A stretch of 55,476 nt of DNA from Terriglobia bacterium (GTDB lineage Bacteria; Acidobacteriota; Terriglobia; JAIQFV01), in contig JAIQFV010000022.1 in assembly GCA_020073085.1 (NCBI GenBank), positions 1 through 55,476 on the forward strand, given 5' to 3'. This document shows, piece after piece, positions 31,242 through 36,821 of the stretch (its first letter is position 1; every line of letters begins with the position of its first letter). Under the pieces are notes generated by a model. It had not been told where the DNA came from. It saw nothing but the letters and a program-made list of their open reading frames with translations, and ran no database searches. The translations under genes and the position numbers were made by a program.

Positions 31242-32171
31242 TCAATGTTTCAGATTAACGTGGTCCAGTGCGCTCCGGATCCCGGCGGCGATCCTTACCG
31301 CCGGTCCTTCTCCCCAGAAATGCAGGAAGAACAGGCGCGGGTCCTCGTCCAACATGTGATTGTGAAGGGCGGTCACGGAAATTCCCGCAGATCGAAGGGC
31401 CTGGATCACAGGGTTGACTTCGCTGGCGATGAGCACAAAGTCGCCCGTGGTCGCGACCCCTTCGGGGGCATCCTGAATGTTAATGAAATTGGCGGTCCCC
31501 ATCAGCGGGGGAATCTCCTCTCCGTGCGCACGGATGGTTTCAGCCCGCGGAAAACCGAAAGAGAGCACTCCAGCACTCTCAGAGCCCTTCCTCCCCAGGA
31601 TTTCCTCGATTTTCTTGCCGTCGAATTTGATGGCTTGAGCGGTGGACTTCTTCACGGCATCTGAGTGCGGGCCCAGTGCCAGCGGAGTAGCCGTCGTCGC
31701 GAGCGCAGCCTTCAAGGTTTTTGCAAGGGTTTCGGCGTTGCCGTGCGCCATGTAATGCATGTACATCACGTGGGGGGTCTCGCCGAGCAGGTGGTTGTGG
31801 AGGGCGGAGATCATGACGCCGCCGGCTTCAAGCCGGTCCACCACCCCTTCGATTTCACCCTGCAGGAGCACAAGGTCACCCATCATGGTGGCAGAGTCTT
31901 CAGTCCCTGTGAACGCCACCCAGGAACCCAGGGCCAATCCCGGCTTTAGCGTCACTCCCCCCAGCGTCACCTTCAGGTCAGTGCGGGGAAATCCGAACTT
32001 TACAGTCCCCCCACTGTAAGTTCCTGTCCTTCCCAATACCGCTTCGACCTTCTTCCAGGAAGTCGCTTCACCTTCTGCCAAAGAAAGGGCCGGCGGGAGG
32101 ACCAAGAGCGTGGCCATTGAGACGATACAAAGAATACGGAACCATGTCGAAAATCTATTCATCGAGTTCAT
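31242..32171 (-). CDS. DUF1259 (LppY/LpqO-type) secreted protein
   Basis: A 309-residue protein with a signal peptide (MNSMNRFSTWFRILCIVSMA ... LSLAEG). It contains two copies of the same domain of about 130 residues. The first has VLGRTGTYSGGTVKFGFPRTD and SALHNHLLGETPHVMYMHYMAHG; the second ILGRKGSESAGVLSFGFPRAE and TALHNHMLDEDPRLFFLHFWGEG. The HNHxL..E.P......H core looks like a metal site, but no activity is known. AAGGAG lies 6 nt before the ATG. It is in the same direction as the chr operon but separated from it by a repeat element. Confidence 0.8.
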   Translation of the reverse strand: MNSMNRFSTWFRILCIVSMATLLVLPPALSLAEGEATSWKKVEAVLGRTGTYSGGTVKFGFPRTDLKVTLGGVTLKPGLALGSWVAFTGTEDSATMMGDLVLLQGEIEGVVDRLEAGGVMISALHNHLLGETPHVMYMHYMAHGNAETLAKTLKAALATTATPLALGPHSDAVKKSTAQAIKFDGKKIEEILGRKGSESAGVLSFGFPRAETIRAHGEEIPPLMGTANFINIQDAPEGVATTGDFVLIASEVNPVIQALRSAGISVTALHNHMLDEDPRLFFLHFWGEGPAVRIAAGIRSALDHVNLKH

Positions 32172-32192
32172 TGTGGACTCCTTGTTTAAGAT

Positions 32193-32437
32193 CAGTTGTC
32201 AGTTCTCAGTTGTCAGTGAAGAGCGAGACTTGAGCGGTTTGACAGTGACGCCAGACGGCAGAGATAAGGAGGGGGACCTCAATCACAACCGACCACTCAA
32301 TTCCTCTCTTTCGATGTCCGCCAAACTGGATCCGAATCTCGTACGCAGTCAGATTGGAAGACCATAGAGCTGAACAGTTTTTCAACTGACAACTGGCAAC
32401 CGACAACTAACCTCTGACAACTGGTTACTGGCAACTG
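32193..32437. repeat. CAGTTGYCAGT-unit inverted-repeat element, copy 1
   Basis: The left arm (32193-32216) is built of CAGTTGTCAGTTCTCAG units and the right arm (about 32383-32437) of CAACTGACAACTGGCAAC units, flanking about 165 bases of unique sequence. The left inner junction CAGTGAAGAGCGAGAC matches CAGTGAAAGGCGAGAC in copy 2 (35629-35934). The right edge almost touches the stop of the chrB C-domain gene. Confidence 0.75.
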
Positions 32438-32441
32438 TTCT

Positions 32442-32873
32442 TCACTGCTTGCAGAATTCATACAACGCATCATAAACCGGAAATTGTTTTTCCAGGCGCT
32501 CTTCATCGGAGGTGCAGGTCTTGGAAAACCCATTGGCGATGGCGTAGAGTCCCGCGCTTTCAGGCGCGGCATGCATTTCACGGGGGATGTCCGCGCCATG
32601 CACGATGAGAGCGAGTCGTGCCAGGGCTGGATTCCCCTTTAAATGGAATTCTTCGAGGATGGTTTCAAACGAACAGTATCCATCGCGATGATTCAACTTA
32701 ACACCCGGATTTTTTGGGACGTCAAAGGGCGTTGCCTCGAGGTCCCGGGACCGCTCCAGGATCACCGCCTCCTGGACAAAGATGAATTCCGCGCTCGGAT
32801 CGATAAAGCGTTTGATCAGCCAAGGGCAGGCCACCCGATCGACCTTTACATTTTCTCGAGTAATCCATTTCAT
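32442..32873 (-). CDS. ChrB C-terminal-domain protein (chromate-resistance type)
   Basis: A 143-residue single-domain protein. WITRENVKVDRVACPWLIKRFIDP opens it, then the acidic/His pattern ATPFDVPKNP and LNHRDGYCSFETILEEF, then VHGADIPREMHAAPESAGLYAIANGF. This is the ChrB C-terminal domain. The neighbouring longer ChrB has the same domain after an N-terminal domain. It is the third gene of the operon; its ATG overlaps the MFS stop by 4 bases. The function of the isolated domain is unknown; a role in chromate or oxyanion response is inferred from family name and context. Confidence 0.8.
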   Translation of the reverse strand: MKWITRENVKVDRVACPWLIKRFIDPSAEFIFVQEAVILERSRDLEATPFDVPKNPGVKLNHRDGYCSFETILEEFHLKGNPALARLALIVHGADIPREMHAAPESAGLYAIANGFSKTCTSDEERLEKQFPVYDALYEFCKQ

Positions 32874-34081
32874 GCATTCACCTCCTGGGTCTTATCATGA
32901 ACAGAAACGAGAAAGAAGAGGGCTCCCGCTACCCCGCAGAGAAAGGCAGCGTGGAATGTGGCGTTGGGTGAAAGGATGTGCCAGAGCCATCCTCCGACCG
33001 CGGCCGCCGGGGTCACCGAAATGTTCCGGATAAAGTAGTAAAGCCCGACATGACGTCCCCGGCATTGTTCATCCGCAAAGTTCACAATCATCGCCTTCCG
33101 CGCTGGTTCCCCGAACTCGCGGAGGCCTCCGACCACAAAGGCGCCGAACATTTGCGGGAAGCTCCGGGCATGCGCCACCATCAGGGGGAAAAGGGCGAAG
33201 CAGATGAATGTGAAAAATACGAGCGGCTTCCGTCCGACGCGGGAGGCCAAAGCAGCCGCCGGGAGATACCCCGCGATGGCGGTGGTCATTTGGACGCCGA
33301 CCAGCAGTCCAAATTGTTTCGGGTTCAGGCCAATGATGTTGATGGCGTAAATCACGATAAAGATCTCGGCGATCCCCTCCGCGAGTCTCGCGAGAATGTC
33401 GGAAAACAGGAGCTGCTTGAGGACGGGCGAAAAACTCCGGAAGAGCAGGACCATCCCGCCGGCGGGACGGGAAAGCGAGGATGGAGTTTGAAGATAGAAC
33501 CTCTGTTGAAGGATCATGGCGAACAGAGCCATCAGGACGGCGACGGCCAGCCCCGTCCGGACTCCGCGAACCATCCCCTCACGAGCGATCAGCAGTCCCC
33601 CCAGGACGGGGGCAATGACGATGGGCAGTCGTTTCAGCAACGATTGCCACGAAAACCCCAGCGTCCTTCGCTCGCTGGACAGGGAGGCTCCGATCGCGGC
33701 GAAGATGGCAGGGGACCCCAGGGACGACCAGCTCATGACAAATAAAACTCCGATGAAAAGCATCCACGGTCGCGAGCTGAGCAAGTAGATGACATAGCCA
33801 CAAGCCGCCATCCCGGCGAATAGGGTCAAAGCCTGCCGTTCGCCCAGTCGATCAGACAGGACTCCTCCGGGGTATTGATAAACCGCGTCGAGGAAATCCT
33901 TGAAGGTGCCAAAGACGGCAATCAGGGCGATGGAGCCGCCCAGGGCTTCCAGGTACTTCGGGAGAAAACTGTTCCAAAGCTCTTCCCCAAAAGCGACCAG
34001 AAAAACGGCGACTGACAGGATGATGACGTTGCGTTCAATGGAAGACGATTTCCGCAGGCTCAGGGAATTCACCGGGTTCAC
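32870..34081 (-). CDS. MFS transporter in the chrB operon
   Basis: A 403-residue major facilitator with about twelve membrane helices. The helix 2-3 loop carries the GVLSDRLGERQA form of motif A. The second half has GLLVGVQMTTAIAGYLPAAALASRVGRKP. The gene overlaps chrB upstream (4 bp) and the ChrB-domain gene downstream (4 bp), so the three are translated together. A ChrA chromate transporter is the usual companion of chrB; here the MFS protein takes that place. The substrate is not known. It could export chromate or another oxyanion, or a metabolite. Confidence 0.82.
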   Translation of the reverse strand: MNPVNSLSLRKSSSIERNVIILSVAVFLVAFGEELWNSFLPKYLEALGGSIALIAVFGTFKDFLDAVYQYPGGVLSDRLGERQALTLFAGMAACGYVIYLLSSRPWMLFIGVLFVMSWSSLGSPAIFAAIGASLSSERRTLGFSWQSLLKRLPIVIAPVLGGLLIAREGMVRGVRTGLAVAVLMALFAMILQQRFYLQTPSSLSRPAGGMVLLFRSFSPVLKQLLFSDILARLAEGIAEIFIVIYAINIIGLNPKQFGLLVGVQMTTAIAGYLPAAALASRVGRKPLVFFTFICFALFPLMVAHARSFPQMFGAFVVGGLREFGEPARKAMIVNFADEQCRGRHVGLYYFIRNISVTPAAAVGGWLWHILSPNATFHAAFLCGVAGALFFLVSVHDKTQEVNA

Positions 34082-35121
34082 TTCGGCACTCTTCCGGATG
34101 ACGGAGGTTTCACTCGTCCCGGGGGGTGTCCCCCTTTAGAATTGTGCTTTTGTTTCAAGTATCCGTAAAGTCGGTTGAATAGCTGGAGCCCCGCTTCCAG
34201 CCGCTTGGAATCCTCTTTGATTGCCGCACAAAGCGACTGGATGACGAGGTTGAATCCTGCGGCTTCGGCTCGACCAAACTTCTCGTCTTTGAGATCGACG
34301 TCGTGGACGATTTCAGCGATCTCCGTGAGAGCCGAATCGGAGTGCAACTGAAATCGCTTGACGAAGGTCTCAAAAGTGCAATCGTCCCCGTGATGACTGA
34401 ATTCCGCACCAAAGCAATCGAAGGGGACCGGGCCGCGGGGGATCCGGCCTTCTGCTGCAAAGATCATTTTAGCCTTCGGATCGATAAAACGGCGGATCAG
34501 CCAGGCCGACGCCAGGCGGTCAATATGCAGGTCACGGCGCGTCACCCAGGTCTTGCCCTGGAACTGATTCGGGGTGCAACGTTCGCTTGAGGGGGAAGTG
34601 GGGGAGGTCTCAGGGCTCGAGCTGCGCAGTGTTTGCAATCGCCGTCCGAGGCGGGCCACTTGCTTCTCCACGGCGCGGGCCCGGTTTGAGCGAAAGAAAT
34701 CCACGCGCCGGATCCGCTCGAGCGACGACTTCAAATCTTCCCAGTCCGAAAGCAGTTTCTTCGTCCGTTGCGGGGAGAGGGGCGTCCGGTCGAGGATCGC
34801 GTCCAGTTTCCGCCCCAGGGTTCCCGACTGCTGCAATAGATCCGTGTAGTCAGCGTCCCGGGACGCCTGGAACCGCTTCCTGAGTTCCTGGTCTTCCTGT
34901 GGCCTCAAGGCTTTCGAAAGAAAAACCGACGCCTCGCCGCCGGCGTCGCGAATCTGCTGCGAGAGCCACTCGAAGTCTTCATGCTGGTCTCTGGAATAAG
35001 GAAGGACGTAGACCGAGTTGCGATGCAGCACCGCCCCCATCTTCTTCAGGGCGCGCCAGATCCTGACGCGCGCCTGCGACGGTTGCGGGGGAATCTGATG
35101 CACAAGAAAGAGCCAGCGCAT
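34078..35121 (-). CDS. chrB: ChrB-like protein (N- and C-terminal domains)
   Basis: A 347-residue protein with both ChrB domains. The N-terminal part (MRWLFLVHQIPPQPSQARVRIWRAL, VLPYSRDQHEDFEWLSQQI) resembles the winged-helix-like/DNA-related N-domain; the C-terminal part (RDLHIDRLASAWLIRRFIDPKAKMIF, HGDDCTFETFVKRF, IAEIVHDVDLKDEKFG) matches the same domain as the small ChrB protein. In some bacteria ChrB senses chromate and regulates the chr operon. The start ATG 35121 is 27 bases after the predicted transcription start, without a Shine-Dalgarno; a TTG two codons earlier is in frame. It is the first gene of the three-gene operon. Confidence 0.83.
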   Translation of the reverse strand: MRWLFLVHQIPPQPSQARVRIWRALKKMGAVLHRNSVYVLPYSRDQHEDFEWLSQQIRDAGGEASVFLSKALRPQEDQELRKRFQASRDADYTDLLQQSGTLGRKLDAILDRTPLSPQRTKKLLSDWEDLKSSLERIRRVDFFRSNRARAVEKQVARLGRRLQTLRSSSPETSPTSPSSERCTPNQFQGKTWVTRRDLHIDRLASAWLIRRFIDPKAKMIFAAEGRIPRGPVPFDCFGAEFSHHGDDCTFETFVKRFQLHSDSALTEIAEIVHDVDLKDEKFGRAEAAGFNLVIQSLCAAIKEDSKRLEAGLQLFNRLYGYLKQKHNSKGGHPPGRVKPPSSGRVPK

Positions 35122-35138: not shown

Positions 35139-35171
35139 GTAACGATCGTTACATAGATTAACGAATGTTAC
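35139..35171 (-). promoter_or_regulatory. Two palindromic operators at the chrB promoter
   Basis: Operator 1 is GTAACGATCGTTAC (35139-35152), a perfect 14-bp palindrome over the transcription start. Operator 2 is TTAACGAATGTTAC (35158-35171), one half-site identical and the other with one change, over the -10 and spacer. Their centres are 19 bp apart, close to two helical turns. The shape (GTAAC-N4-GTTAC) is like TetR-family operators. No TetR gene is in the window; ChrB itself is another candidate. Confidence 0.7.
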
Positions 35172-35183
35172 ATACCTTGTCAA
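35155..35183 (-). promoter_or_regulatory. chrB operon promoter
   Basis: Minus strand: TTGACA (35183-35178), a 17-nt spacer, TAATCT (35160-35155). This is close to the sigma-70 consensus. Operator 2 overlaps it and operator 1 lies just downstream, so repressor binding would block RNA polymerase. Confidence 0.75.
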
Positions 35184-35248: not shown

Positions 35249-35274
35249 GAAAAGGCATTGTGATCTTTCTCAGC

Positions 35275-35466
35275 GGTTTCAGGTACTCCGAAAGGTCGGA
35301 GTCAAAAAGGGAACGCCGTGAAAGTCGGCGACGGTCGCGCCACTGTGAGACCACGCTTCCGGGTTCAAAACCACTGTTCCTCACGCACTGAGCGGGACGG
35401 GATGGGAAGGTGAGAACGCAACCGAGAGTGGCCAAGTCAGGAGACCTGCCTGGAACCAGCGAAACC
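35275..35466 (+). promoter_or_regulatory. Cobalamin (AdoCbl) riboswitch
   Basis: The outer stem P1 is GGTTTC (35275-35280) paired with GAAACC (35461-35466). Inside are the conserved blocks GGGAACGCCGTGAAAGTC, GCGCCACTGTGA and CAGGAGACCTGCC (35438-35450), which are the hallmarks of the class. With the terminator at 35585 it most likely reduces transcription of the btu genes when cobalamin is plentiful. Confidence 0.92.
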
Positions 35467-35584
35467 TAGGAACTGAAGCCAGGGGCTCGGCATCCCGAGC
35501 GATGCCCCAAAGCTTCTCTCCTTCAGGTTCACGACTCCAAAGTTGTGCTCTTCGCGTCAAAGGGCCCGTGGACAAAGTTTATTG

Positions 35585-35626
35585 CCCCGTGCGTTTTCCT
35601 ACGAAGATGCACGGGGTATTTTTTTA
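35585..35626 (+). terminator. Rho-independent terminator downstream of the riboswitch
   Basis: CCCCGTGC (35585-35592) and GCACGGGG (35609-35616) form an 8-bp stem, followed by TATTTTTTTA. It lies about 120 bases after the aptamer and about 215 bases before btuF, as expected for ligand-controlled premature termination. Confidence 0.85.
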
Positions 35627-35628
35627 TT

Positions 35629-35934
35629 AGTTGTCAGTTGCCAGGTCTCAGTTGTCAGAAGGCAGTTCTCAGTTCCCAGTTGCCAGTGAAAGGCGAGACG
35701 TCACAGGTCAGAATGCAATGTCAATGATCAAAGGGCTTCGTCATTTTTTGTCGATTGACTCACTACTCTCCCTGCCTCGCGGTCCCCAGGCTTCCAGGAG
35801 TGGGGATGTGTTGGTTGTCAGGCCCAAACCTTCCGAATTGATGGATGCTCCAACTGACAACTGGGAACTGGCAACTGCGAACTGGCAACTGAGAACCGCC
35901 CTTGGACAACTGGCAACTCGCAACTGGCAACTGG
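35629..35934. repeat. CAGTTGYCAGT-unit inverted-repeat element, copy 2, running into btuF
   Basis: The left arm (35629-35690) has CAGTTGCCAG, CAGTTGTCAG and CAGTTCTCAG units; the right arm (35851-35934) is built of AACTGGCAACT-type units. About 160 bases lie between. The right arm is inside the btuF reading frame and encodes the repeating NWEL/NWQL residues. A separate TTCTGGC-type tract follows (35935-35974). Confidence 0.8.
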
Positions 35935-36821
35935 TTTCTTCTTTCTGGCTTCTGGCTTCCTGCCTCTGGCTTCTTATCGTTTTTCCCCAGATCACCACCG
36001 CTGCCACACACCCAGTCATCGACGAAACCGGCCGCACGGTGATGGTTCCCGAACGTCCCCGGCGCATCATTTCCATCGCCCCGAGTGTCACTGAAATCCT
36101 TTACGCCCTTGGTTTGGACCAGAGAGTGGTGGGCCGGAGCGATTATTGCGATTTCCCTCCCGAGGTCCGGCAGAAGCCCAGCGTGGGGGGATTGATCGAT
36201 CCCAACATCGAGGTCATCGTCTCCCTGCATCCGGACCTGGTGATCGGAACGCCTGAGATAAACAAGATTGCTGTGGCGGACGAGTTGGCGCGTTTTGGGA
36301 TTCCTCTTTACGGGGTGCACACGACCTCTCTCAAGGATGTCTTCCGCGCCCTGGAGGATGTAGGGACGTTGGCCGGGAACCAGGCCCAGGCCGACGTCCT
36401 CGTTCATTCACTTCGGGAACGCCGGGACGCGGTCGTGAAGCAGGTGGCAGGACTGCCCCGGCCCCGGGTGCTCTACCTGGTTTGGTACAACCCGATCAGC
36501 GTGCCGGGACGCGGGGCCTATATCACAGATCTTATTTCGCTCGCGGGGGGGGATTCGATCAGCGGCGATCTTAAACAGGATTGGGCGCAATTGTCGCTGG
36601 AAGAAATAGTGCAACGCGACCCGGAAATCATCCTTCTTCCGAGAAACAACGGAAATTCTCCCGCGATCGATCAATTGAGATCGTGGCCGGGCTGGAGCCG
36701 CACGACGGCTGTTCGAACAAACCGGGTCTTCGAAGTTGAGGACAATGCCAGCCGCCCGGGTCCGCGGCTTTTGGACGCCCTGGAACAGTTTGCAGAGTTT
36801 TTCCATCCCGCAGCCAAGTAA
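35841..36821 (+). CDS. btuF: Periplasmic cobalamin-binding protein BtuF-like
   Basis: A 326-residue substrate-binding protein of the BtuF/FhuD type. The mature domain is clear: HPVIDETGRTVMVPERPRRIISIAPSVTEILYALG, VGRSDYCDFPPEV, a long connecting helix, and VLYLVWYNPISVPG. It would hand cobalamin to BtuCD. The N-terminus is odd: residues 5-31 (DNWEL, ANWQL, GQLATRNWQL) are encoded by the repeat element, and the hydrophobic core SSFWLLASCLWLLIVF by a TTCTGGC-type tract. Cleavage would be after TTAA (about residue 55). The start is uncertain; ATG 35841 has no Shine-Dalgarno and starts upstream (to 35631) are open. It follows the riboswitch and terminator and leads btuF-btuC-btuD-btuB. Confidence 0.82.
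   Translation: MDAPTDNWELATANWQLRTALGQLATRNWQLVSSFWLLASCLWLLIVFPQITTAATHPVIDETGRTVMVPERPRRIISIAPSVTEILYALGLDQRVVGRSDYCDFPPEVRQKPSVGGLIDPNIEVIVSLHPDLVIGTPEINKIAVADELARFGIPLYGVHTTSLKDVFRALEDVGTLAGNQAQADVLVHSLRERRDAVVKQVAGLPRPRVLYLVWYNPISVPGRGAYITDLISLAGGDSISGDLKQDWAQLSLEEIVQRDPEIILLPRNNGNSPAIDQLRSWPGWSRTTAVRTNRVFEVEDNASRPGPRLLDALEQFAEFFHPAAK

Follow-up and report, generated by a model that had tools for sequence, protein, structure and literature searches.

Two palindromes at a chrB promoter of a Terriglobia bacterium are predicted operators for ChrB

Two palindromic sites, O1 and O2, at the chrB promoter of a Terriglobia bacterium are very probably bound as operators by ChrB. The gene for this protein is the first one transcribed from the same promoter, and ChrB would thereby repress its own operon. 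The prediction is based on sequence comparisons that start from the window, i.e., the whole stretch of 55,476 nucleotides that was analyzed (GenBank assembly GCA_020073085.1, contig JAIQFV010000022.1). The features concerned are as follows.

35178–35183, minus strand: −35 element TTGACA of the chrB promoter, read directly; a 17-bp spacer follows
35158–35171, minus strand: predicted operator O1, GTAACATTCGTTAA, over the −10 element and the spacer, read directly
35155–35160, minus strand: −10 element TAATCT, read directly, with bases in the right arm of O1
35139–35152, minus strand: predicted operator O2, GTAACGATCGTTAC, a perfect 14-bp palindrome, read directly
34081–35121, minus strand: chrB, 347 amino acids, proposed autorepressor (PF20229, 5e-14; PF09828, 5e-44)
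32870–34081, minus strand: MFS transporter (PF07690), second gene of the operon, at the place that chrA holds in most relatives
32442–32873, minus strand: stand-alone ChrB_C protein, third gene (PF09828, 9e-46)
31242–32171, minus strand: DUF1259 protein, probable fourth gene (PF07485, 2e-83; order as in relative L057)

Direct reading of the minus strand confirmed the promoter TTGACA-17-TAATCT that an earlier note had proposed, together with the site overlapping it and the perfect palindrome that follows, the two centres lying at 35164.5 and 35145.5 and thus 19 bp apart. The motif GTAAC-N4-GTTAC is exact in O2, and O1 (TTAACGAATGTTAC on the plus strand at 35158–35171) is a copy with one mismatch. 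Calling the promoter strong, as that note did, goes somewhat too far: its −35 element matches the consensus at 6/6 positions, but its −10 element matches at just 3/6 and a consensus promoter scan gave no entry here. O1 is imperfect in symmetry at the positions that double as the −10 element, and 20 of the 30 exact sites of the window type (class A, see below) have a TANNNT −10 whose register within the right arm is that of O1. Most of the related group also have a further GTTAC 16–19 bp downstream of the site. Based on its position, O2 spans the predicted transcription start at about 35148, and the ATG start codon of chrB at 35121 lies downstream of the whole arrangement. The positions of the sites fit blocking of the −10 element and the start point. 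Cooperative binding at O1 and O2, as the note had supposed, is plausible from the 19-bp spacing.

The window contains a single exact GTAACN4GTTAC, and elsewhere, besides O1 and O2, every match has at least two mismatches. At two mismatches, the window gives 13 matches vs 6.7 expected. Two exact copies are present in the 5.79-Mb genome, one of them O2. The other (L002 1501–1514; genome C40) is located between the tRNA-Tyr and tRNA-Thr genes and is probably a chance occurrence. The tandem O1–O2 pair occurs once genome-wide, with up to three mismatches allowed.

One close relative was found, a Terriglobia genome with a ChrB that is 81% identical. Its promoter, TTGACC-17-TATTCT, lies at the same place as that of the window, with GTAACATTCGTTAT as the counterpart of O1 and GTAACGACTGTTAC as the counterpart of O2, again 19 bp apart. 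Between the two loci the flanks have otherwise diverged, but the promoter, the two palindromes and the distance separating them are kept. With this conservation and with equivalents on chrB promoters across phyla, the identification of the palindromes as repressor operators over a promoter is well supported.

Upstream DNA was compared at about 110 chrB loci, taken from the class and phylum of the window genome and from plasmids. Perfect 5-bp arms 4 bp apart were present in 17 of 46 representatives, compared with 5.9 in shuffled sequences (largest value 12); the palindrome-arm set of 74 genes was gathered with the Ochrobactrum-type query alone, and both queries were used for later sets. Other even arm gaps were also enriched upstream of ChrB genes, as expected from the differing half-site lengths among the sites. 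The nearest ChrBs outside the genus have GTAATACTTATTAC, GTAACACCTGTTAC and GTAACATTTGTTAC at their promoters. Judged by such comparisons, a palindrome of 14 bp is a common feature of chrB promoters, and its half-site varies with the lineage of the ChrB protein. The lineages were told apart by residues 15–19, which gave five protein classes with five site types.

Class A, N/Q/R16: GWAAY-N4-RTTWC (window type)
A15S16V19: GTTAY-N4-RTAAC
Y16V19: GATWC-N4-GWATC
Y16A19: ATAGC-N4-GCTAT
Class E, M/Q/T19 (Proteobacteria, Ochrobactrum type): GTAG-N6-CTAC

In the training set, exact sites of the gene's own class were found in 8/12, 9/28, 5/14, 4/12 and 4/8 genes for the five classes as listed, with one cross-class exact match in total. 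The rule linking lineage and site was fixed in writing before the held-out genes were fetched. Among held-out class-A genes, which are not fully independent because most belong to one bacterial family, 15 of 16 had an exact window-type site (shuffles 0.00). For class E, the site was exact in 5/9 held-out genes and within one mismatch in 7/9 (shuffles 0.30); when three genes seen before the rule was written were removed, these numbers were 3/6 and 4/6. The rule failed in the three held-out cases of class C (1/1) and class D (2/2), and a search for further class-C genes in another class gave no new ones. As judged from these upstream regions, the rule is well supported for class A and fairly supported for class E. 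Three class-A-like genes outside the rule (L148, L155 and L158) each have an exact site.

The site was also present where the N-terminal domain of ChrB occurs by itself. Five genes encoding ChrB_N-only proteins of 180 residues, with no ChrB_C, were read, and no helix-turn-helix family was found in these five proteins. Three of the genes are preceded by an exact site (GTAACCATCGTTAC, GTAACACTCGTTAC and GAAACGGCCGTTAC) and a fourth by a site with one mismatch (GTTACGACCGTTAC); the fifth has the inverted type GTTACCGCCGTAAC near its start and an exact site 261 bp upstream. Since these genes carry the site without a sensor domain, the site follows the N-terminal domain. Actinomycete loci in which the two ChrB domains are encoded by separate genes carry GTAACCACGGTTAC, GAAACCATGGTTAC and GCAACCGTGGTTAC, and as the neighbors differ among all these loci, the common factor is ChrB_N. 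On an E. coli plasmid, GAAACGGCCGTTAC (L184 1448–1461) precedes a ChrB_N-only gene directly upstream of mcr-5.1, and to go by this arrangement the pair may be under ChrB_N control.

The window ChrB combines an N-terminal Cas2-like domain and helices with a C-terminal ChrB_C domain in one protein (PF20229, 52.9 bits, cut-off 23; PF09828, 150.3 bits, cut-off 25). There is no chrA beside it in the operon (31242–35121), an MFS gene standing in its stead, and the close relative likewise has the order chrB, MFS, ChrB_C and DUF1259 and no chrA. The nearest relatives outside the genus show chrB-chrA, chrB-chrA-MFS (L087) or chrB-chrA-MFS-ChrB_C (L086), and by its gene order the window operon resembles the third arrangement minus chrA. 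With no chrA in the operon, the inducer need not be chromate, though the induction residues are kept. A ChrB-regulated operon that answers to a non-chromate signal, with the MFS protein exporting another oxyanion or a drug, is a possibility to be taken seriously, if the less probable one: the MFS exporter occupies the place of chrA in both genomes, and the genes that follow ChrB_N-only regulators include those for MFS proteins and lipid A transferase, among others. However, the window residues R195, R202 and H243, equivalent to the Ochrobactrum residues R180, R187 and H229 that are needed for chromate induction, are all present and invariant in 71 ChrBs; moreover, this reading bears on the inducer and not on the operator.

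Several other features lie next to the operon. Divergent from chrB is a cobalamin riboswitch (35264–35467, plus strand; RF00174, 105 bits), followed on its 3′ side by a terminator-like hairpin (35583–35618) and then by genes for a BtuFCD-type periplasmic binding protein, permease and ATPase and for a TonB receptor. Arrays of an imperfect 7-bp repeat (CAACTGN and its complement), some as inverted arms, are located at 35629–35947, adjoining the riboswitch, and at 32192–32437, in the third intergenic stretch of the chrB operon.

Under the autorepression model, one ChrB dimer, bound at O1, would mask the −10 element, whose bases form the right arm of O1, and another, bound at O2, would mask the start point. 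With RNA polymerase thereby blocked, all four genes (chrB and those for the MFS exporter, the ChrB_C protein and the DUF1259 protein) would be expressed at a low level. Repression would be lifted by an inducer that ChrB_C senses, probably chromate or an oxyanion like it. For the window promoter, we infer dimer binding, repression, cooperativity and inducer alike. It is improbable that the main role of ChrB at these sites is activation or dual regulation, in which it would reshape the promoter on induction without leaving the DNA. Such behavior would agree with gel shifts in which chromate left the Ochrobactrum ChrB bound to DNA, but the Ochrobactrum promoter is constitutive in the absence of ChrB (PMC3817168), and the sharing of bases between O1 and the −10 element and the location of O2 at the predicted start are typical of a repressor.

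The earlier note had seen no repressor gene nearby and had preferred a TetR-type protein, naming ChrB autoregulation as the alternative. The first gene of the promoter, chrB, is itself a member of a repressor family, and the evidence from the compared loci favors autoregulation. A 5-4-5 palindrome resembles many TetR operators in shape, and the genome contains eight TetR_N genes. However, this contig has none of the eight, nor is any of them found within several kb of a GTAACN4GTTAC site with at most one mismatch, and the preference for TetR was dropped for this reason. Moreover, the site tracks chrB genes amid varied neighbors in Acidobacteriota, Pseudomonadota and Actinomycetota, and it is very unlikely that both sites are bound by a TetR-type protein from another locus of the genome. 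That the palindromes are chance resemblances without function is scarcely credible: loose matches are common, as the excess of two-mismatch matches in the window illustrates, but the genome has no second such pair, its spacing and register are conserved in the relative, and 15 of the 16 held-out class-A genes carry the site. A site cannot be recognized at every ChrB gene: for the second full-length ChrB gene of this genome (L050 3151–4053; genome C1:241156), no recognizable operator was found within 400 bp. A chrA-like match is located about 2 kb downstream of that gene.

ChrB autorepression is already known, whereas the definition of the operator, its variants and the operon lacking chrA appear to be new; the literature search returned nothing relevant that links ChrB to PaaX or Cas2 or describes the ChrB operator. 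With a precise predicted operator for the ChrB family, binding can be checked in gel shifts and the targets of the family can be sought. It also predicts the regulator of other resistance genes, mcr-5.1 included, since these are preceded by ChrB_N-only proteins with the same site, and it offers an alternative reading of the published Ochrobactrum repeat. Finally, it raises the question of how a 14-bp palindrome is read by a protein with no visible helix-turn-helix.

Like TetR-family operators, the sites described here are short palindromes over a promoter, but they have no TetR gene nearby, nor does any TetR gene of the genome lie close to such a site. A second comparison is with PaaX. The N-terminal 170 residues of ChrB are predicted to form a Cas2-like fold of the ferredoxin-like kind and, after it, three long helices (model built from five sequences only; mean pLDDT 82.1). 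A model of the whole protein was set aside for fold comparison (mean pLDDT 60.6). The top Foldseek match of the N-terminal model was PaaX of Escherichia coli W (PDB 8a39; E 0.0075), and residues 1–170 aligned best with PaaX 108–280 (Z 7.3, rmsd 5.2), although simple helical bundles score higher; a sequence search of the PDB gave no match. The Pfam family PaaX_M was found in 48 of 71 ChrBs, and the window protein scored just below the cut-off (22.5 vs 24 bits). PaaX differs in having an N-terminal winged helix. No winged-helix family was found in the window ChrB, which begins at the first Cas2-like strand; as this is past the end of the PaaX winged helix, ChrB is without that DNA-binding domain. 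The structural model is thus suggestive of ChrB_N as a PaaX minus its winged helix. Whether ChrB is a sequence-specific repressor with no helix-turn-helix, in which a Cas2-like fold and a helical bundle represent the PaaX core without its winged helix, in which lineages changed the half-site (GTAAC, GTTAT, GATWC, ATAGC, GTAG) and kept the 14-bp palindrome, and of which the 180-residue ChrB_N-only protein is the smallest form, seems to us evenly balanced.

The closest known system is ChrB of Ochrobactrum tritici TnOtChr, which has both the N- and the C-terminal ChrB domain and represses its own promoter; repression is abolished by R18A or R23A, and induction by R180A, R187A or H229A (PMC3817168). 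Residues were mapped via a plasmid gene (L137) whose upstream DNA holds the published 34-bp Ochrobactrum promoter element exactly and whose product agrees with expectation at each of the 14 residues that were mutated there. By this mapping, R18, R23, R180, R187, H229 and H258 of Ochrobactrum correspond to R18, R23, R195, R202, H243 and H273 in the window ChrB, and R18 is present in 71/71 and R23 in 68/71 ChrBs. Covariation was rejected as a means of naming helix 1 (residues 15–22) the DNA reader. Mutual information with the site was equally strong throughout the protein, including ChrB_C, which argues that the pairing of site and residues follows lineage. What would speak for helix 1, by analogy, is the pair of mutants at R18 and R23. 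The two systems differ in that the Ochrobactrum operon is chrBACF and the window operon lacks chrA, and in that the Ochrobactrum element GTAGATCTTATCTCATTATTGTAGTAACATCTAC was published as a longer, 12-9-12 repeat (PMC3817168), compared with palindromes of 14 bp in the window. Binding was retained after three bases of GTAGATCTTATCTCATTATTGTAGTAACATCTAC were altered (PMC3817168). The element ends in the 14 bases GTAGTAACATCTAC, a class-E palindrome of the kind that many other chrB promoters have, and from this correspondence we propose GTAGTAACATCTAC, rather than the 12-9-12 repeat, as the Ochrobactrum operator. The Ochrobactrum promoter carries GTAG-N6-CTAC where that of the window carries GTAAC-N4-GTTAC twice, and both have an inverted repeat overlapping the −10 element and autorepression, which for the window ChrB is our proposal.
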